Under the pieces are notes generated by a model. It saw only the letters and a program-made list of their open reading frames with translations. It did not search any database and was not told where the DNA came from. The translations under genes and the position numbers were made by a program. Positions 16,378 through 47,449 of a DNA stretch of 53,607 bases are shown one piece after another (position 1 is the first letter of the stretch; every line of letters begins with the position of its first letter). Source of the stretch: Gemmatimonadota bacterium. GTDB lineage: Bacteria > Gemmatimonadota > Gemmatimonadetes > Gemmatimonadales > Gemmatimonadaceae. The DNA lies in NCBI GenBank assembly GCA_031127095.1, contig JARIEX010000005.1, positions 1 through 53,607 of the forward strand, given 5' to 3'.

Positions 16378-19095
16378 CTACGGACGGTACGGATCGTCCC
16401 CGAACCGGCGCCGGATGCGGACCGTGCGCTCGAGCTCGTCACGGCTCTGGAGAATTTTCTGCCGCAGGTCCGCCCCGAGCGTCGGATGGGCCGCCAGCCA
16501 CCGGTCGATGATCTGCAGCGCCTCCGCCTCCGACTGGCCGCCAATGGTCGCCCCCAGCCAGCTCCCTAAAAAGAAGATCCGGCGGTTCTGCTGGATCCAC
16601 GGCAGTGTGTCCAGCGCCGCGGTCAGGTAGCGGGTGGTCAGTGCCCGCTGGTCGGGATCATGAAAGCTCCGCAGGCTCGACGTCACCCACTCCTCATTCA
16701 GGGTCGCGTCCGCAAACCACCGGGTGAACAGCGCCTGCTTGTTCGCCGCGTCGGGGCGCGCCGCATCGGCCACGAACGCCTGCCGCTGCCCCTCGCTCGT
16801 AGAGTCGCGCCGCGCTTCCGCCGCCAGACGCGCCGCGGCCGTGGGCGCATCACGCGCCACCAGCCGCGTCACGATGGACCACCGGGTGGGGGCCCGCAGC
16901 GGCAGGCCGGCAATCGAGTCGCGGCCCAGCCACGCGTCCAGCTGCCCCAGCGACGCCGGCGTGCGCGCCAGTCCGATCACCGCGTCCAGCTGGCTCTTCC
17001 GCTGCCCGTAGCTGCGCGTGCTGTCCTCGGCGCCGCGCAGCAGCAACGGCTCGGCGCGCGCCAGCAGGGCCTCGCGGGTGGCGTCGGCGCTGTACCGGCC
17101 GATCACCGTGGATAGCCGCCCCACCAGCGTGCCTGCGATCTGTTCGTCGCGTTCCTGCGGCAGTTCGCGCAGCACCATCTCGGCGTAGCGCGTGGGGGAT
17201 AGCCGTGCCTCCCGCACCAGATCCCACAACGCGCCCCACAGCATCGCGCGCAGGAAGTCGTCGCGCACCGTCCCGATCTGCTGCTCCAGCCAGCGCACAC
17301 TGCCACTGTCGGGCAGGACCAGGGCGTACCCATAGTCGGCGTCGTTCGCGAACACGAACGCCGGGGCCGGCCGCCCGGCCGCGGCCGTCACGACCGTGGT
17401 TTCCCCGCGCAGTTCTACGGGCAGGCGGACCGCCGGCCGGTCGGTGTAATACAGCAGGAGCTGCACCTTGAGCGGCCACGCCCCCGGGCCCGACAGCGCC
17501 GGCTGCGCCGCCCGCTGCACGAGCGCCAGCCGCTGCACGACGCCGCCGCGCACCACTAGCTGCTGTTCCACCAGCGGCATCCCCGGGCGCAGCATCCACG
17601 CCCGTCCCCACGCCGTCAGGTCGCGGTGCGCCGCCTGGCCCACACTCGCCAGCAACTCGCGCCACGTGCCGTTGCCATAGGCGTGCTGCTGCAGAAACGC
17701 CCGCACGCCACGCTGGAAGGCCGGTGCACCCACCAGATACTCCAGTTGCTTCAGTACGCCGGGCGCCTTGTTGTACACGATCGGCCCGTAATTGCTCTTG
17801 GCCTGATCGAGATTCCCAAGCTGCTGCCAGATCGGGGTGGTTCCCGCCGTGGCATCGGTCGCGTAGGCCACCGGCTTGTTGCGCAGGTAGAACGTCTTCC
17901 ACGCGTTCGAGGTGGGCTCGAGGTCGGCCTGCATGCGCGCCGCCATGTAGGTGGCAAAGCCCTCCTTCAGCCAGAGGTCGTCAAACCAGCGCATCGTCAC
18001 GAAGTCGCCAAACCACTGGTGCGCCACTTCATGAAAGGTGGTCGCCTGTCGCCCCAGTAACTGCGACGCGGTCGGCCGCTCGCGGTAGATGAAACTCTCC
18101 TCGTTGTAGAACACCGCACCCGGATGCTCCATGCCGCCAAACGGAAACGCCGGCGCCAGCAGCGCATCGTATTTGTCGAACGCGTACGGAATCCCGAACC
18201 AGTCGCCCAGCCAGCGCAGCGCGCGCGCATTCATGGCGATCAGCGTGTCACTCTCCGCCTCGGCGCGCCGCGATTGCCGCATCCAGAGCGACACGGGCAC
18301 CGGCGGCGCCGCGGTGGTGGTGGCCACCGAGCGGGTGGTCGTGGCCCACGGCCCCGCCGCGAACGCAATCAGGTACGTGCTCAGTCGCTGCGTCTCGGCG
18401 AAGCGGTGCGTCACCGCTGCCCCCGCGGTATCGGCACCGACCAGCGCGCCGTTGGCTAGCGCTCGCCAGTCCGACGGGGTGGTGAGCGCAAGGCGCACGC
18501 GCGCCTTGAGGTCGGGCTGATCGAAGCACGGGAAGAGCAGGTTGGCGTCTGACGGCACCAGCAGCGTATACAGATACACGCGGCCATCCGCGGCATCACG
18601 CGTGCGGATGATGCTCGCGCCCGCCTGCGCCACCGGCGTGCGGAACGCCAGTTCGACCTGGTTGCGCCCCACGCGCACCCGTGCCGCCGGGACCACCACA
18701 TGCATCCGGTTCCAGGCCGCCGGCGCCTCCGCCCACGGCGCCCCGTTGATGCGTCCCTCGGTCACCGACAGCCCGCGGAAGTCGAGCACCACGTCGCCCG
18801 GTCCGCGCGCCGTGAACGACACGGTTACCCGCCCCGTGGCGGTGTCGCCCGCACTCACGGTGAGCGCGAGATCGTACGCCACGTCCGACAGTTGGGCGGC
18901 CCGGCGACGGGCCAGGTCGGCCGACACGCCGGGGCCGGTGAGCGCGGCGGTGCGGGGGGCGGTTGGCGTCGCCGCACGGGCGCCCGCCTGAGCCGCGAGC
19001 CCGGTCGGTCCAAGCAGCGCGGTCAGGGCGAGCAGGGCGCAGGGCGTGATGCGTCGCCGCACGCGACGGGTCGAGCAGGGGGCGGGAGAAGGCAT
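16378..19095 (-). CDS. Secreted M1-family metallopeptidase (aminopeptidase N-like)
   Basis: A zinc aminopeptidase of 905 residues, exported through a signal peptide (RRRITPCALLALTALLGPTGLAAQA). The catalytic zinc motif HEVAH spans residues 355-359, with the third zinc ligand Glu378 in LKEGF at the exact family spacing, and the GAMEN-equivalent GGMEHPGAVFYNEESF lies upstream of it. The C-terminal ~400 residues form an ERAP1-like helical domain (WSIVTRLVARD... LTTRYLTAALDTLPWIQQNRRIFF). An upstream in-frame ATG at 19200 would add 35 residues before the signal peptide and run into the divergent promoter, so 19095 is chosen. It precedes susC on the same strand by 234 bp. Confidence 0.93.
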   Translation of the reverse strand: MPSPAPCSTRRVRRRITPCALLALTALLGPTGLAAQAGARAATPTAPRTAALTGPGVSADLARRRAAQLSDVAYDLALTVSAGDTATGRVTVSFTARGPGDVVLDFRGLSVTEGRINGAPWAEAPAAWNRMHVVVPAARVRVGRNQVELAFRTPVAQAGASIIRTRDAADGRVYLYTLLVPSDANLLFPCFDQPDLKARVRLALTTPSDWRALANGALVGADTAGAAVTHRFAETQRLSTYLIAFAAGPWATTTRSVATTTAAPPVPVSLWMRQSRRAEAESDTLIAMNARALRWLGDWFGIPYAFDKYDALLAPAFPFGGMEHPGAVFYNEESFIYRERPTASQLLGRQATTFHEVAHQWFGDFVTMRWFDDLWLKEGFATYMAARMQADLEPTSNAWKTFYLRNKPVAYATDATAGTTPIWQQLGNLDQAKSNYGPIVYNKAPGVLKQLEYLVGAPAFQRGVRAFLQQHAYGNGTWRELLASVGQAAHRDLTAWGRAWMLRPGMPLVEQQLVVRGGVVQRLALVQRAAQPALSGPGAWPLKVQLLLYYTDRPAVRLPVELRGETTVVTAAAGRPAPAFVFANDADYGYALVLPDSGSVRWLEQQIGTVRDDFLRAMLWGALWDLVREARLSPTRYAEMVLRELPQERDEQIAGTLVGRLSTVIGRYSADATREALLARAEPLLLRGAEDSTRSYGQRKSQLDAVIGLARTPASLGQLDAWLGRDSIAGLPLRAPTRWSIVTRLVARDAPTAAARLAAEARRDSTSEGQRQAFVADAARPDAANKQALFTRWFADATLNEEWVTSSLRSFHDPDQRALTTRYLTAALDTLPWIQQNRRIFFLGSWLGATIGGQSEAEALQIIDRWLAAHPTLGADLRQKILQSRDELERTVRIRRRFGDDPYRP

Positions 19096-19169
19096 CCCGC
19101 GAAGCTGGTCGCGCGCGCCGTCGCTGTCCAGCAACCCCGCCGCGTACCAGTCGGTGCCCGCCGCGAAAC

Positions 19170-19197
19170 TCGACAGCGCGCGGTTCTGCGTTAACAT
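19170..19197 (+). promoter_or_regulatory. Possible promoter of the double-Rieske gene
   Basis: TCGACA (19170-19175), 16 bp, TAACAT (19192-19197). The ATG at 19205 follows 7 bp after the -10, so the transcript may be leaderless; no Shine-Dalgarno is seen. It lies in the 109-bp divergent gap with the M1 peptidase gene. Confidence 0.35.
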
Positions 19198-19204
19198 CAA
19201 GAGT

Positions 19205-20626
19205 ATGACTCCTGACCATCCGTCCTGCTCCGGCTGCGGTCATCTCGACCGGCGCCAGTTTCTGGCCTCCGCCTCGGTCCTGTCGCTCGGTGCGCTCGTC
19301 GCTGGCTGTGGTGACGGCGTGATCAGCGGGCCCGAGCAGCTCCCCGACGGGATTCCGCAGCCCTTCCGGATTGATCCGGCCACCATCCCCGAGCTCGCGC
19401 CGGTGGGTGGGCGCACGGTGGTCGTATCGGGTGCCTCCTCACCGGTGCTGGTGGAACGCGTGGGGAGCCAGCAGTTCCGGGCGCTTTCGCTGGTCTGCCC
19501 CCACCGGGGCTCCATCGTGAATGTGGCGGCCGACGGGCTGCGCTGCCCCAACCACGATGCGCGGTTCGCCAACAATGGCACGTGGCTCAGCGGGCAGCCC
19601 ACCGCCGACCTGACGCCACTCGACGTGCGGCGGAACGCCGACGGATCGCTGCTGGTTGGCGGCGCCCTCACGCCGGCCGTGCTCGGGCTCGACCGGAACG
19701 CGATCGTGTTTCTCACCACACCCACCGGCAACGCACCCGCGGCGCAGACGGTTGCGATCACCAACGGTGGCGGTGGCATTCTCGGCAACCTCGCCGTCTC
19801 CCTCGCCTACGGCGCCAATCAGCGCACGGGCTGGCTGGCCATCGCCCTCAGCGACTCGGCCGCGCCGGCGACACTCACGCTCACGGCACTGCGTGGCACG
19901 CTGCCCGTGGGCAACTATACCGCCACGGTCACCGTGGGCGTCGGCAGTGGGGCACAGACCATCGCCGTGTCCCTGCTGATCCAGGATCCCACCACCCCGG
20001 CCAGCCTGCAACTGTCCACGGCCGCGCTCACGTTTGCGGCGCCGGTCGGGACGGTCCCTGCCGCGCAGACGGTGCAGTGCAACAACGCCGGGGGAGGCAC
20101 CCTCACCGGGCTGTCGGTCGCCATCGCCTACGGCGCTACGGGCACCAACTGGCTGTCGGCCTCCTTCAATCAGGTCACGGCCCCTGCCACCCTCACCGTC
20201 CGTCCCGCCGTCGGGGCGCTCGCCGTGGGCACGTACACCGCCATCATCACGGTGCTCGCCGCCGGCGTTGCCTCACGGACCGTCGCGGTCACGCTCACCG
20301 TCTCGCCGGCCGGACTGGTGGTCACCCTCTCCGCGTGGCCGGCCTTGGCCAACGTGGGCGGCGTGGCGGGCAGCGTGGGCAACGTCAACGGCGGCCCCGT
20401 GGCCATCACGCGACTCAGCGCCACCAGCTTCGGCGCCTTCTCCATGCGCTGTCCGCATGCCGGTACGACGATCACGGTCGTCAGCGGCACGAGCTTCCGC
20501 TGTCCCAATCACGGCGCCCTGTTCAACAGCGCGGGGGTGTGGCAGTCCTCCCCGCAACGCGCCGAAAATCTCACGCCACTCACGGTGATCTACACGCCCG
20601 GGGCGACCACACTGTCGGTGGTGTGA
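19205..20626 (+). CDS. Tat-exported lipoprotein with two Rieske [2Fe-2S] domains and two BACON/Ig-like repeats
   Basis: A 473-residue predicted redox protein. The N-terminus has a twin-arginine signal (Arg16-Arg17 in DRRQFLASAS) and a lipobox LVAGC with Cys35, so it should be folded in the cytoplasm, exported by Tat and lipid-anchored. Rieske domain 1: Cys98-Pro-His100 and Cys114-Pro-Asn-His117. Rieske domain 2: Cys416-Pro-His418 and Cys433-Pro-Asn-His436. Each is followed by a matching closing segment (NGTWLSGQP / AGVWQSSPQ, then LTPL). Between them, residues ~155-260 and ~265-367 are two similar Ig-like repeats with PAAQTV, APATLT and VGTYTA patterns, like BACON domains. An extra CxxC (Cys8, Cys11) lies before the Tat motif. 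The partner and electron donor are unknown; no quinone-reductase, oxidase or cytochrome gene is adjacent. Confidence 0.88.
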   Translation: MTPDHPSCSGCGHLDRRQFLASASVLSLGALVAGCGDGVISGPEQLPDGIPQPFRIDPATIPELAPVGGRTVVVSGASSPVLVERVGSQQFRALSLVCPHRGSIVNVAADGLRCPNHDARFANNGTWLSGQPTADLTPLDVRRNADGSLLVGGALTPAVLGLDRNAIVFLTTPTGNAPAAQTVAITNGGGGILGNLAVSLAYGANQRTGWLAIALSDSAAPATLTLTALRGTLPVGNYTATVTVGVGSGAQTIAVSLLIQDPTTPASLQLSTAALTFAAPVGTVPAAQTVQCNNAGGGTLTGLSVAIAYGATGTNWLSASFNQVTAPATLTVRPAVGALAVGTYTAIITVLAAGVASRTVAVTLTVSPAGLVVTLSAWPALANVGGVAGSVGNVNGGPVAITRLSATSFGAFSMRCPHAGTTITVVSGTSFRCPNHGALFNSAGVWQSSPQRAENLTPLTVIYTPGATTLSVV

Positions 20627-20731: not shown

Positions 20732-21031
20732 ATGCCGACTTACGAGTTCCGCTGCCCCGACGGCTCCATCATCGAGGCTCGGTTCAAGATCTCCGAAGTC
20801 CCGGAAAGCATTCCGACGCCTGACGGCACGGGAGTGGCCACGCGCATCATCTCCGGTGGTGCGAGCCTCCTCTTCAAAGGCTCCGGGTTCTACATCACCG
20901 ACTACGGCAAGGACGGCAAGAAGGATCAGCGCACCGCTGGTGCGCCCTCTTCCGATGCCGGCGCCGCGGCCACGCCCAAGAGCGACGCGAAACCGTCCAC
21001 CAGCACCCCATCGACGCCGGCGGCTGACTGA
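20732..21031 (+). CDS. FmdB-like small protein with degenerate zinc ribbon
   Basis: A 99-residue protein whose start (MPTYEFRCPDG) and middle (RIISGGASLLFKGSGFYITDYGK) match the FmdB/CxxC putative regulatory family. The usual two CxxC pairs that bind zinc are gone: Cys8 is the only cysteine, and the second knuckle reads IPTPDGTG. The last ~40 residues are a Pro/Ala/Ser/Thr-rich tail, probably disordered. First gene after the promoter at 20668 and 43 bp ahead of argS. The family's biochemical role is poorly defined, and loss of the metal site makes a zinc-dependent role unlikely here. Confidence 0.8.
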   Translation: MPTYEFRCPDGSIIEARFKISEVPESIPTPDGTGVATRIISGGASLLFKGSGFYITDYGKDGKKDQRTAGAPSSDAGAAATPKSDAKPSTSTPSTPAAD

Positions 21032-21074: not shown

Positions 21075-22727
21075 GTGACGCACGCCGACGCCCTGCGCGC
21101 CGAGCTCTCGCGCGCGGCGCGCACCCTCGGTGCGCCCGACGACGTTTCGCCCATTCTCGAACGCCCGCGTGATCCGTCGTTCGGCGACTGGGCCACCAAT
21201 CTCGCCATGACGCTGGCCAAGCCGCTCGGCCAGAAGCCGCGCGACATCGCCACCGCCCTCATCGCCGCGATGGACACGGCCAGCGTCGGTGTGACGGCTG
21301 CGGAAATCGCCGGCCCGGGCTTTCTCAACTTCCGGCTCGATCCCGGTTTCCAGGCGCGGGGACTGCTCACGATTCTCGAGTCGCCCGACACCTTCGGACG
21401 CCTCGACATCGGACACGGCGCGCGCGTGGTGGTGGAGTTCGTCTCGGCCAATCCCACCGGCCCGCTGCACGTCGGTCACGGCCGCCAGGCAGCGCTCGGC
21501 GACGCGATCAGCACGTTGCTCGAGTACACCGGCTGGAACGTTGATCGCGAGTTCTACTACAACGACGCCGGCGCGCAGATCGCCAATCTCGCCAAGAGCA
21601 CGCAGGCGCAGGTACGTGCCATCGGTGGCGCGCCGCTCGAGATCCCCGAAGGGGGCTATCACGGCGACTACATCCGTGAAATCGCCGAGCGGTATGTGGC
21701 CGAGCATCCGGACGACGCGGCGGGCGACAATCTCTCGGCGATGCAGGCGTATGCCGTCGCCGCGCTGCGCCACGAGCAGGATCTCGACATGCAGGCGTTC
21801 GGCGTCAAGTTCGACACGTACTACCTCGAGAGCTCGCTCTACACCGACGGCTTGGTGAACAAGACCGTCGAGGGGCTGCAGGCATCCGGGCATACGTACG
21901 AGGAAGACGGCGCGCTGTTCCTGCGCACCACCGACTTCGGTGATGACAAGGACCGCGTCATGAAAAAGAGCGCGGCGAAGGGGGGCGACTACACGTATTT
22001 CGTCCCCGACGTCGCGTATCACGTCACCAAGTGGGAACGCGGCTACCATCGCGCGATCAACGTGCAGGGCGCTGATCACCACAGCACCATCACGCGTGTG
22101 CGTGCCGGCCTGCAGGCGCTCGATATCGGGATCCCCACGGGCTACCCCGACTACGTGTTGCATCAGATGGTGACGGTCATGAAGGGCGGCGAGGAAGTGA
22201 AGATCTCCAAGCGCGCCGGATCGTACGTCACGGTGCGCGATCTCATCGACGAAGTCGGTCGCGACGCGGTGCGCTATTTCTACCTCATGCGCAAAGGCGA
22301 CTCGCAACTGGTGTTCGATGTCGACCTCGCGCGCAGCCAGTCGGAAGAGAACCCCGTGTACTACGTGCAGATGGCGCACGCCCGCATGTGCGGCATCTTC
22401 CGCGTCGGCGAGATCGACGCCACCACGGTCACAGGCCAGGGCGTCGATCTCGGCGTGCTCTCCGAGCCGGCCGAACAGGAACTCGTCAAGCAGCTGCTCG
22501 ATTTCCCGGCCACAGTAAAGGGCGCCGCCGACAATCTCGAGCCGCATCGTATCGCCGCGTGGTTGCTGGAAACGGCGCGGGCCGGTCACACCTGGTACCA
22601 CAAGCATCATGTCCTCGGCGAACCCGAGGCCATCACGCGCGCGCGCCTCGTGCTCGCCCGTGCCACGCAGCTCGGCATCGCCGCCGGCCTGCGCATCCTC
22701 GGACTGTCCGCGCCGGAGCGCATGTGA
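21075..22727 (+). CDS. argS: Arginyl-tRNA synthetase
   Basis: Class I synthetase charging tRNA-Arg with arginine. Order of parts in 550 residues: N-terminal Add1-like domain, the HIGH box as HVGHGR after SANPTGPL, the catalytic core with DYTYFVPDVAYH, the KMSKS-equivalent as VKISKRAG, and a C-terminal DALR anticodon-binding helix domain ending GLRILGLSAPERM. No ATG is available in frame near the conserved start; GTG at 21075 (VTHADALRAEL) gives the expected N-terminus. The stop overlaps the GTG of the pfkB-type kinase by 4 bp. Confidence 0.95.
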   Translation: MTHADALRAELSRAARTLGAPDDVSPILERPRDPSFGDWATNLAMTLAKPLGQKPRDIATALIAAMDTASVGVTAAEIAGPGFLNFRLDPGFQARGLLTILESPDTFGRLDIGHGARVVVEFVSANPTGPLHVGHGRQAALGDAISTLLEYTGWNVDREFYYNDAGAQIANLAKSTQAQVRAIGGAPLEIPEGGYHGDYIREIAERYVAEHPDDAAGDNLSAMQAYAVAALRHEQDLDMQAFGVKFDTYYLESSLYTDGLVNKTVEGLQASGHTYEEDGALFLRTTDFGDDKDRVMKKSAAKGGDYTYFVPDVAYHVTKWERGYHRAINVQGADHHSTITRVRAGLQALDIGIPTGYPDYVLHQMVTVMKGGEEVKISKRAGSYVTVRDLIDEVGRDAVRYFYLMRKGDSQLVFDVDLARSQSEENPVYYVQMAHARMCGIFRVGEIDATTVTGQGVDLGVLSEPAEQELVKQLLDFPATVKGAADNLEPHRIAAWLLETARAGHTWYHKHHVLGEPEAITRARLVLARATQLGIAAGLRILGLSAPERM

Positions 22728-23665: not shown

Positions 23666-24714
23666 GCACGGCCGGCGACACCCCGCTCACGTATCGCGCG
23701 GCCGGCGTCGACATCGACGCCGCCGAAGATTCCAAGCATCGCCTCGCCGCGCTCGTGCAGTCCACGCTCACCGCCGGTGCGCGCGGTGCCTTCGGCGGGT
23801 TCGGCGGCATGTTCCGCGTGCCGGAGGGCTATCGCGCGCCGTTGCTCGTGTCCAGCGCCGATGGCGTCGGCACCAAGATCAAGATCGCCATCGAAGCCGA
23901 TCGTCACGACACCATCGGCCACTGCCTCGTCAATCACTGCACGAACGACATCCTCGTGCAGGGCGCGGTGCCGATGTTCTTCCTCGACTACGTCGCCTTC
24001 GGCAAGCTGTTGCCGGAGGTCGTCGAAGGCGTGGTGGCGGGCGTCGCCGCCGGCTGCCGCGAAAATCTGTGTGCCCTCATCGGTGGTGAAACGGCCGAGA
24101 TGCCGGGCGTGTACACGCCACCCGACTACGATCTCGCCGGCTTCATCGTCGGCATCGTGGAAGAATCGCAGGTCATCACCAGCGCCAACGTGCGGGAAGG
24201 CGATGCGCTGGTCGCGCTGGCCAGTGACGGGCTGCACACCAACGGCTATTCGCTGGCGCGCCGCATCATCAGCGACCGACTGCAGCTGGGCGTGCACGAT
24301 GCCTTCCCCGACGCCGGTGGCGCGTCCGTGGCCGATGTCATGCTCCGCGTGCATCGCTCGTACCTGCAGTGCCTCAAGCCGGTGCTGGGCCACATCCACG
24401 CCATGGCGCACATCACCGGCGGCGGACTGCCCGGCAACCTGAACCGGGCGCTCCCTGAAACACTCGATGCCAACGTGGACACGGCCTCGTGGACCGTCCC
24501 CTCTACCTTTCGGGTACTCGCCGAGGCGGGAGCGGTGGACACGCTGGAGATGTTCCGGGCCTTCAACATGGGAGTGGGTATGGTGGTCGTCACATCACAG
24601 GACAACGTGGGGCAGATCACGGCCCGTGCCGCGGCCTGCGGCATCGAGGCGTGGGAGTGCGGCACGGTCGTGAAGGGCACGGGTCGCGTGCGTCTCGACG
24701 GCGTCGTCACATGA
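23662..24714 (+). CDS. purM: Phosphoribosylformylglycinamidine cyclo-ligase (AIR synthetase)
   Basis: ATP-dependent cyclisation of FGAM to AIR, step five of purine synthesis. 350 residues with the expected LTYRAAGVDIDA start, SSADGVGTKIKIA, the GGETAEMPGVY motif, ASDGLHTNGYSLAR and AHITGGGLPGNL. GTG start overlaps the kinase gene by 4 bp, and its stop overlaps the following ATG (ATGA). No other pur gene is present in the window. Confidence 0.96.
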   Translation: MSTAGDTPLTYRAAGVDIDAAEDSKHRLAALVQSTLTAGARGAFGGFGGMFRVPEGYRAPLLVSSADGVGTKIKIAIEADRHDTIGHCLVNHCTNDILVQGAVPMFFLDYVAFGKLLPEVVEGVVAGVAAGCRENLCALIGGETAEMPGVYTPPDYDLAGFIVGIVEESQVITSANVREGDALVALASDGLHTNGYSLARRIISDRLQLGVHDAFPDAGGASVADVMLRVHRSYLQCLKPVLGHIHAMAHITGGGLPGNLNRALPETLDANVDTASWTVPSTFRVLAEAGAVDTLEMFRAFNMGVGMVVVTSQDNVGQITARAAACGIEAWECGTVVKGTGRVRLDGVVT

Positions 24715-25751
24715 CGGCGCGCCGTCCGCACGCGGCGGGGATCCGCGCCGCCCTTTGGTCGACCGTCGTGGTGGCCGTGGCCACGGCAGTGCCGCTCGTC
24801 GCACCCGCGGCGCAGACCACCTCCGGCCCGTGCACCGTCTCGCCGGCCACTTTCTCGGGCTCCGACGTCTGCCAGAAGGGACGCGACCTGTTCGGCTTCG
24901 TCGTGCCGCAAATCGGCGTGGCGGTTGCCACCGGTAACCCCGTGCTCGGCGAAGGTGGCACGCTGGGCGGATGGCCCAAGCGCGCCTTTTCGCTGCGCCT
25001 CAGCGCCGTTGATGGACTGCTCCCGGCCAATGCCGTACCGCTCAGCGTCACCGGCACGGCGGTGCGCAGCGATTTCGGCGCGGTGCGCACGCCCGTGCCG
25101 ATGCCGTCGGCCGATGCCGCCATCGGGCTCTTCCCCGGCATTCCGCTCGGGATCACGAACACGCTCGGTGTCGATGTCCTGCTGGGGGCCACCTATCTGC
25201 CCACGGTCAGCGAGAGCGAGTTCGCCGTGACCCCCGTTGGCAACGGCGTCGCATTGCAGTACGGCGTGCGCGTGGGGGCCCTGCAGGAATCGTCGTTCAT
25301 TCCGGGCGTCAGCGTGAGCTACGTGCGGCGCAAGATGCCGACCGTCGATCTGGGCTACACCCCCAACAACGATACGCTGTCCGTGACCGGCACGTCGGTC
25401 ACGGCCAATGCCATTCGCATCGTGGCCAGCAAGCGGGTGGCGATTCTTGGTGTTGCCGTCGGTGTGGGACGCGACGAGATCGAGGGGTCGGCGTCCATGC
25501 GGGCGTCGGTGAACGAAACCGTGCTCGGCACCAGCCAGCGCATCAGCGTGTCGCTCCCTAACCTGCGCTACGCGACCACGCGCAACACGGCGTTCGCGAA
25601 CGTGTCGTTGGGACTCGGGCTGGCGCGACTCGTCGGTGAATACGGCTGGTCGAGTCAGGGCACCGTGCAGGAAACGATCAATCAGTTCGGCGGTCGCAAG
25701 GCCGATGAAGGGTATCGCTACGGATCGATCGGCATCGCCTTCCGGCTCTGA
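24711..25751 (+). CDS. Predicted outer-membrane beta-barrel protein, unknown function
   Basis: A 346-residue exported protein: signal peptide (RAALWSTVVVAVATAVPLVAPAAQ), then amphipathic strands with the alternating pattern of a small outer-membrane barrel (LGVDVLLGATYLP, GVRVGALQESSFIPGVSVSYVRR, IRIVASKRVAILGVAVGVGRDE) and a final strand YGSIGIAFRL ending in a hydrophobic/basic residue. Two cysteines (GPCTVS, SDVCQK) near the mature N-terminus may pair. I do not recognise a specific family. It is tucked between purM (4-bp overlap) and ribD (16-bp gap), an odd place for an envelope protein. Confidence 0.75.
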   Translation: MTARRPHAAGIRAALWSTVVVAVATAVPLVAPAAQTTSGPCTVSPATFSGSDVCQKGRDLFGFVVPQIGVAVATGNPVLGEGGTLGGWPKRAFSLRLSAVDGLLPANAVPLSVTGTAVRSDFGAVRTPVPMPSADAAIGLFPGIPLGITNTLGVDVLLGATYLPTVSESEFAVTPVGNGVALQYGVRVGALQESSFIPGVSVSYVRRKMPTVDLGYTPNNDTLSVTGTSVTANAIRIVASKRVAILGVAVGVGRDEIEGSASMRASVNETVLGTSQRISVSLPNLRYATTRNTAFANVSLGLGLARLVGEYGWSSQGTVQETINQFGGRKADEGYRYGSIGIAFRL

Positions 25752-47002: not shown

Positions 47003-47449
47003 ATGAAACGTGTGTGGGGAGCACTGGGTCTTGTGCTCGCTCTCAGCGCATTCATGCCACGAGTCGCGGCGGCGCAGGATACCAAAGCCCGCCGCAACGG
47101 TGCGACGCTCGGACAGAATTATCCGAATCCGTTCAATCCAGAGACTCGCATCCCGTTCAGTGTGGGTGATGCACCCAACTGTACCGAACCCGGTCGGCAG
47201 TACCGCGTCAGCCTGAAGATCTACAACATGATCATGCAGGTGGTTGGGACGCCGGTGTTGCAGGGCGGAACCGGAGGGGTGGCCGGAGGTCAACCGCTGG
47301 AAAAACTATCCGTTCCGTGTGGTGAATTCGTCGCCTATTGGGACGGCAAGGTCCAAGCAACCGGGCGGGAGGCCGCTTCAGGCGTGTATCTGTATCGCCT
47401 CGAAGTGGATGGCGTGCCGCTGGTGAAAAAGATGATCGTGGTGAAGTAA
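47003..47449 (+). CDS. Small secreted protein consisting of one NPFNP sorting/FlgD-like domain
   Basis: A 148-residue exported protein. Signal peptide MKRVWGALGLVLALSAF...RVAAAQ (cut near residue 25), then a single domain with the hallmark LGQNYPNPFNPETRIPFSV, SLKIYNMIMQVV, FVAYWDGK and ASGVYLYRLEVDG ending VKKMIVVK. These are the blocks of type IX secretion C-terminal sorting domains and of FlgD Ig-like domains, which normally sit at the end of large proteins; here there is no cargo. Cys60 and Cys106 could form a disulfide. It is monocistronic, with its own promoter and a strong terminator, and has lower GC than its neighbours. Function unknown. Confidence 0.85.
   Translation: MKRVWGALGLVLALSAFMPRVAAAQDTKARRNGATLGQNYPNPFNPETRIPFSVGDAPNCTEPGRQYRVSLKIYNMIMQVVGTPVLQGGTGGVAGGQPLEKLSVPCGEFVAYWDGKVQATGREAASGVYLYRLEVDGVPLVKKMIVVK

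Follow-up and report, generated by a model that had tools for sequence, protein, structure and literature searches.

What a single exported chain would do with two complete Rieske domains is the question raised by a gene from a Gemmatimonadota bacterium (family Gemmatimonadaceae; assembly GCA_031127095.1), which we analysed within a 53,607-nucleotide stretch of contig JARIEX010000005.1, hereafter the window. Its product, to which we gave the working name RIIR for this analysis, carries a Rieske domain, or head, on either side of two Ig-like repeats (Table 1). To our knowledge, no chain with two complete exported Rieske domains has been described. A search of the literature on two-headed or tandem Rieske proteins and on Gemmatimonadota Rieske proteins, covering few subscription journals, returned no title or abstract opening that describes RIIR or the operon presented below.

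Architecture and conservation of RIIR

Pfam family PF00355 (Rieske) matched RIIR in two separate stretches (E 9.5e-16; 57.9 bits against a cut-off of 20.3) that flank two Ig-like repeats sharing 46% identity over 103 columns, which bears out the Rieske-Ig-Ig-Rieske order of the original prediction. The Tat motif, the lipobox cysteine and both CxH/CxxH sets described there were also found exactly where they had been placed, with CxH at residues 98 and 416 and CxxH at residues 114 and 433. From its twin-arginine and lipobox motifs, RIIR is predicted to be a Tat-exported, lipid-anchored protein. Besides PF00355, the Pfam search gave no match above cut-off and no signalling domain. The two Rieske domains are 41% identical over 83 columns, and PF00355 matched all 21 RIIR orthologues at E<=1 (best 5.8e-19). 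Inspection of the whole sequence placed its cysteines at residues 8, 11, 35, 98, 114, 292, 416 and 433; neither head has a cysteine beyond its cluster ligands, so a loop disulfide is not possible. About 200 residues of Ig-like spacer lie between the heads, and no recognised cofactor site was found in them.

AlphaFold2 models supported both Rieske folds, each CxH/CxxH set sitting within one of them, while the arrangement of the domains relative to one another was uncertain (pTM 0.61). In the structure-model search, Ig-type VIA rows over model positions 125-230 corresponded to Ig-like repeat 1. Because Ig-like domains filled the match list of the whole model, we modelled and searched Rieske domain 2 alone, and Foldseek then matched it to CarAc-type dioxygenase Rieske ferredoxins. 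The spacers had been described beforehand as BACON/Ig-like repeats. Their Ig-like character held, and the BACON label is weak: Pfam gave no BACON match at E<=1 in the RIIR of the window, and at that threshold there were weak matches to BACON_2 (PF19190) in 7 of 21 orthologues (best 3.3e-5) and to BACON (PF13004) in 2 of 21 (best 0.026).

Table 1. Features of the RIIR gene and of its surroundings in the window.
Feature	Position	Strand	Details
M1 aminopeptidase ORF	16378-19197	-	called start 7 bases from the Rieske gene start
Two-headed Rieske lipoprotein (RIIR)	19205..20626	+	473 aa, stop at 20626; translation checked
Predicted Tat lipoprotein signal	19205..19309	+	RR residues 16-17 (19250-19255), lipobox Cys35 (19307-19309)
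Rieske domain 1	19367..19669	+	residues 55-155; ligands C98, H100, C114, H117
Ig-like repeat 1	19676..19990	+	residues 158-262; beta strands in model
Ig-like repeat 2	19997..20311	+	residues 265-369
Rieske domain 2	20315..20623	+	residues 371-473; ligands C416, H418, C433, H436
FmdB-family zinc-ribbon protein	20732..21031	+	PF09723 and TIGR02605, both below cut-off; role with RIIR not implied
Arginyl-tRNA synthetase (argS)	21075..22727	+	downstream neighbour, context
346-aa protein	24711-25751	+	no Pfam match at E<=0.001
Short protein	47054-47449	+	YPNPFNP motif

The same domain order was recovered elsewhere: among 149 related genomes searched, full-length RIIR was present in 21 of the 29 others of the genus, at 52-95% identity, and in none outside it. 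With the window's own genome this amounts to 22 of 30 same-genus genomes (G000-G029). G010 carries, at the same locus, an orthologue with six Ig units in place of two. G016 retains at the orthologous site (L131, G016:C6) a degraded remnant, missing a ligand and interrupted by a stop, indicating that the gene can be lost. Six genomes that are 57-86% complete (G002, G007, G012, G014, G017, G027) gave no two-headed match. Across the phylum, 25 of 395 evenly drawn genomes matched RIIR at E<=1e-30; 21 of these are same-genus genomes with both heads (G010 in its longer form), and the other four (G092, G123, G280, G349) matched the Ig region only. Two-headed matches at this threshold were thus restricted to this genus, probably Gemmatimonas. 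A further scan of GTDB genomes, based on two short motifs that other two-headed designs could escape, identified full-length RIIR at 16 of 79 loci (L052-L067).

We aligned RIIR from the window with orthologues from 20 same-genus genomes, leaving out L025, whose N-terminus is truncated or divergent. All 21 rows retain the cluster ligands (C98, H100, C114, H117, C416, H418, C433, H436), R16, R17 and the lipobox C35. F19, L20, G36, D37 and G38 are likewise invariant, preserving CGDG after the cleavage site, as are A119, F121, A438 and F440. Mean pairwise identity was 0.64 and 0.75 for the first and second heads and 0.57 and 0.56 for the Ig-like units, Rieske domain 2 being the most conserved part of the protein. 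Three comparisons for each head put dN well below dS, with ratios of 0.05-0.11 for Rieske 1 and 0.00-0.10 for Rieske 2. A tree built from 132 Rieske domains, in which identical rows were entered once and the few columns leave the deeper forks unsure, grouped the first heads in a single clade (98*) and the second heads in a separate one (99*), so that each head has one origin in Gemmatimonas. We rejected a recent internal duplication as the source of the two heads, since the tree does not pair them as sisters, with the reservation that its deep forks are weak.

Genomic setting of the RIIR gene

We next considered whether the neighbours of RIIR point to a function. The zinc-ribbon gene follows RIIR at each of the 20 full-length loci that we examined, from 18 genomes, and argS lies downstream in 19 of them; at the remaining one (L060) the contig stops first. 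Of 30 genomes from the family's other genera, 28 had a match; there the zinc-ribbon gene adjoins argS at 28 loci out of 29, and no Rieske match was found near the pair within 1.5 kb on each side, or less at contig ends. The occurrence of this pairing without a Rieske gene elsewhere indicates that RIIR entered the site in the Gemmatimonas lineage; an ancient association of RIIR with argS was discarded on the same evidence, and synteny alone is uninformative on function.

The original prediction held that no partner oxidoreductase gene is adjacent. This stands for the ten window neighbours scanned, which include no oxidoreductase partner and no gene for a cytochrome b, a molybdopterin subunit, an oxygenase, a reductase or a hydrogenase; it needs qualifying in that the nearest single-Rieske relatives of RIIR adjoin predicted haem membrane proteins (see below). 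One published account, which names G. aurantiaca, describes a Rieske gene beside hucL (PMC7784904), the Rieske protein of the hydrogenase being hucE. We rejected this identity for RIIR, there being no hydrogenase gene among those ten neighbours. A link to the divergent M1 peptidase gene or to the SusC/SusD pair was rejected as well, because the pairing is absent from some orthologous loci.

Some features of the surroundings were recorded in their own right. The called start of the M1 aminopeptidase ORF lies very close to that of RIIR (Table 1); 849 of its 939 residues align in the relative L053, which makes a start deeper within the ORF probable. The gene for the 346-residue protein is kept downstream of argS in those full-length RIIR loci whose contig extends that far. 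The YPNPFNP motif of the short protein is known from C-terminal sorting or FlgD-like domains.

The R2 family and its putative haem partner

A set of genes that we name A, B, R1 and R2 recurs in relatives outside the genus and as paralogues inside it. The product of A has about 200 residues with four near-invariant histidines (39, 41, 41 and 41 of 41 sequences); Pfam relates it weakly, below threshold, to DUF4079 and, for a single relative, to cytochrome b561, and four membrane helices were not cleanly seen in its hydropathy profile. From the four histidines and the sub-threshold similarity, A is likely to be a b561-like haem membrane protein. B has about 170 residues, two invariant histidines (30/30) and weak similarity to DUF2214/CopD. 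Neither A nor B matched an NCBIfam family at E<=0.01. R1 is a Rieske protein with Ser/Tyr at positions CxxH+2/+4, and R2 one with Ala/Phe or Ala/Trp there. A twin arginine lies near the N-terminus in 25 of 31 R1 and 29 of 40 R2 proteins and a lipobox in 0 of 31 and 31 of 40, counts that rest on crude start calls.

Over 42 loci, A lies within four genes and on the same strand of 36 of the 40 R2-type genes, and B within two genes of 28 of the 31 R1-type genes. Three of the four R2 genes without a nearby A adjoin a contig end (L070, L077 and L102, the fourth being L103). At loci where the set is broken up, the pairs that remain together are A with R2 and B with R1 (L072, L075, L079, L084, L092). 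The survey of the gene set and the neighbour and motif counts of R1 and R2 leave out L041-L043, L049 and L050 (a distant Rieske protein on contig C28, the G010 gene and regions duplicating other loci or genomes). From the neighbour and motif counts we also left out loci L107-L130, most of them from Bacteroidota and further phyla, but kept L114 and L118.

In the window's own genome, contig C101 carries a complete and apparently undescribed A-B-R1-R2 set (L040:7571-9739), which lies between Omp85/TamB genes and genes for an M20 peptidase and a GluQ-like synthetase. The distant Rieske protein on contig C28 (L041:9919-10425) has extra loop cysteines (CTHSSC...CDCH) and is encoded beside an M24-type peptidase. 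In other lineages we found directly joined double Rieske proteins that have no Ig units (L068, L072, L075, L079, L094, L102, L103). In two genomes of another family, lipoprotein-like Ig-array genes with 9 and 6 units of the RIIR-type repeat (L068:6480-9887 and L094:7896-10247) lie directly downstream of the double-Rieske genes, the L068 array gene also having a Calycin_like match.

RIIR shares the features of the R2 family, having Tat-lipoprotein motifs and Ala/Phe at CxxH+2/+4 in both heads, and we regard it as a genus-specific offshoot of this family, which is small, seems not to have been described and is encoded beside A. The A gene was never found beside RIIR in the loci examined, and the single A match of the window's own genome lies on contig C101.

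The residues at CxxH+2/+4 bear on the redox potential. In bc1 Rieske proteins, according to one report, Ser and Tyr at these tuning positions raise the potential, with shifts of -130 and -65 mV in yeast mutants; in Kustd1480, for which it gives +335 mV, Phe occurs with Ser kept, so that Phe for Tyr need not lower the potential (PMC12954380). With Ala/Phe in place of Ser/Tyr and no loop disulfide, the potentials of RIIR are predicted to lie clearly below +300 mV. We infer from these residues that both clusters would be lower in potential than those of bc1-type Rieske proteins.

We then compared the occurrence of RIIR, A and standalone R2 across the 30 same-genus genomes. Only G008 gave no A match; the other 29 have one (22/23 plus 7/7; partial in G019 and G002). 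Standalone R2 was found in 25 (19/24 plus 6/6; partial in G027) and not in G001, G004, G008, G020 or G022. In all of these except G008 the Omp85-A-B-R1-M20-GluQ order is intact minus R2, R1 being followed directly by M20. All five genomes without R2 encode RIIR, and all seven without intact RIIR (G016 and the six above) have an R2 match, one of them partial; no genome of the 30 was seen without both. This pattern fits, and is suggestive of, replacement of R2 by RIIR. By hand arithmetic, five and seven absences among 30 would show zero overlap with a chance of 0.24, which is not statistically significant, and six of the seven genomes without intact RIIR are only 57-86% complete. On the RIIR tree, the absence of R2 needs two changes, one of them being G008, so the pattern may rest on a single real deletion. 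G008 has RIIR; A, R1 and R2 were not found there, and its lack of a close M20 (best match 38%) suggests an assembly gap. In G019, which is closely related to it, R1 and R2 are present and A is partial at a contig end. Since most same-genus genomes hold R2 and RIIR together, RIIR is not simply a substitute for R2.

Competing explanations and comparison with known systems

The architecture of RIIR, its two modelled folds, the conservation of its ligands, the single origin of each head and the likeness to R2 are observed or strongly supported, and an account of its role can build on them. Our preferred reading, which we put forward tentatively, is that RIIR is exported by Tat and, held by a lipid anchor, carries electrons in the periplasm through two low-potential Rieske clusters, with A as its partner and the Ig-like units as a tether. 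In Tat export, clusters are generally loaded beforehand; those of RIIR would be loaded first, and the protein would then be exported and anchored via Cys35. The membrane-side redox partner would be A, the four-His cytochrome-b561-like protein, and because A is encoded beside R2, RIIR could with this partner stand in for R2. The Ig-like units may act as a tether that gives the heads periplasmic reach, the heads exchanging electrons with partners separately or by collision and not along the spacers. Two versus six Ig units at the same locus would suit such a tether better than a fixed relay. A wider proposal, possible if somewhat doubtful, is that the b561-like A, a further histidine-bearing membrane protein B, a higher-potential Tat Rieske protein R1 and a lower-potential lipoprotein R2 form an undescribed Gemmatimonadota Rieske/haem system, in which RIIR is a rebuilt, Ig-tethered carrier that fully replaces R2 in some species and has a spacer of 2-6 Ig units.

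RIIR might instead carry electrons for a different path, such as that of a periplasmic oxidase, reductase or peroxidase, and have nothing to do with A, the absences of R2 being coincidental. We take this as a serious possibility: the RIIR locus has no A gene, RIIR and R2 occur together in most genomes, and the few changes on the tree leave the pattern within chance. It sits less well with the R2-type Ala/Phe signature of both heads and their sequence match to R2, or with the four genomes that keep RIIR while their A operon misses only R2. An unlikely role is that of a cell-surface redox or iron sensor, or of a binding protein whose clusters are structural. Such a role would agree with surface-type Ig-like repeats, with the SusC/SusD genes near RIIR in the window and with Gly, not Asp, at lipoprotein position +2, a residue that directs lipoproteins to the outer membrane under the E. 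coli +2 rule. The SusC/SusD and M1 genes are, however, missing beside RIIR in some orthologous loci, RIIR has no signalling domain, and its Ig-like repeats are less conserved (0.56-0.57) than its heads (0.64, 0.75).

The original prediction had favoured a lipid-anchored, two-cluster electron wire or sensor. A conserved protein with two Rieske folds held apart by Ig-like domains, predicted to be exported and anchored, is what remains of this; the intramolecular wire, with electrons entering at one cluster and leaving at the other by way of the Ig-like spacers, has become very improbable. In its favour, each chain has two complete heads in a fixed order with all ligands conserved. Against it, the Ig fold between the heads is without a recognised cofactor, the G010 orthologue has six such units, and the arrangement of the domains is uncertain. 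A gap of this length is too wide for direct tunnelling, unless the chain were to fold back on itself or two molecules to pair head to tail. That RIIR is a decaying gene with one dead head, or an ORF joining two genes, has next to no probability. The G016 remnant speaks for decay; the 21 other full-length orthologues, the invariant ligands in 21 aligned rows, the low dN/dS and the single clade of each head all speak against it. A fusion of two genes, which had been named beforehand as a possible artefact, or a sequencing error is ruled out by full-length orthologues that are one gene and not two, by ligand invariance and by the conserved loci.

RIIR may thus point to an unstudied electron-transfer system, and its conservation across a genus with closed genomes makes it testable. 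Natural variation in the number of spacers could readily be used to study how a mobile electron carrier depends on the length of its tether. In A, B, R1 and R2, two Rieske types with opposite second-sphere residues are encoded beside putative haem proteins; if this holds, A-B-R1-R2 would amount to a Rieske/cytochrome system of simple design, separate from the bc complexes.

Known bc1/b6f Rieske subunits are exported and membrane-anchored. They have the Rieske fold with CxH...CxxH in common with the RIIR heads (PDB 9rk4, 8hn2, 1rie, 5cxm), but RIIR has two heads per chain, is predicted to be anchored by a lipid and not by a TM helix, lacks loop disulfide cysteines, carries Ala/Phe and not Ser/Tyr at the tuning positions, and has no gene for a cytochrome b among its ten scanned neighbours. 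Its scores against the bc1/b6f equivalogs fall below cut-off (TIGR01416, 18.9 versus 97.4 bits; NF045928, 23.2 versus 250 bits). The best NCBIfam match of RIIR by E-value (2.5e-6) is AioB, the Tat-exported small subunit of arsenite oxidase (TIGR02694), but at 27.4 bits it falls short of the cut-off of 95.65, and no molybdopterin subunit gene occurs among the ten neighbours. Dioxygenase Rieske ferredoxins have cysteine-free loops, and the CarAc-type proteins matched by Rieske 2 share the Cys-free CxxHxxxF loop; RIIR differs from them in being a predicted exported lipoprotein with two heads and in having no oxygenase or reductase gene among those neighbours. The closest relatives that we saw are the R2 family, most of which have the Ala/Phe signature and a Tat motif or lipobox. 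In contrast to RIIR, they have one head, or two directly joined, with no internal Ig units, and they are encoded with A and often with B and R1.
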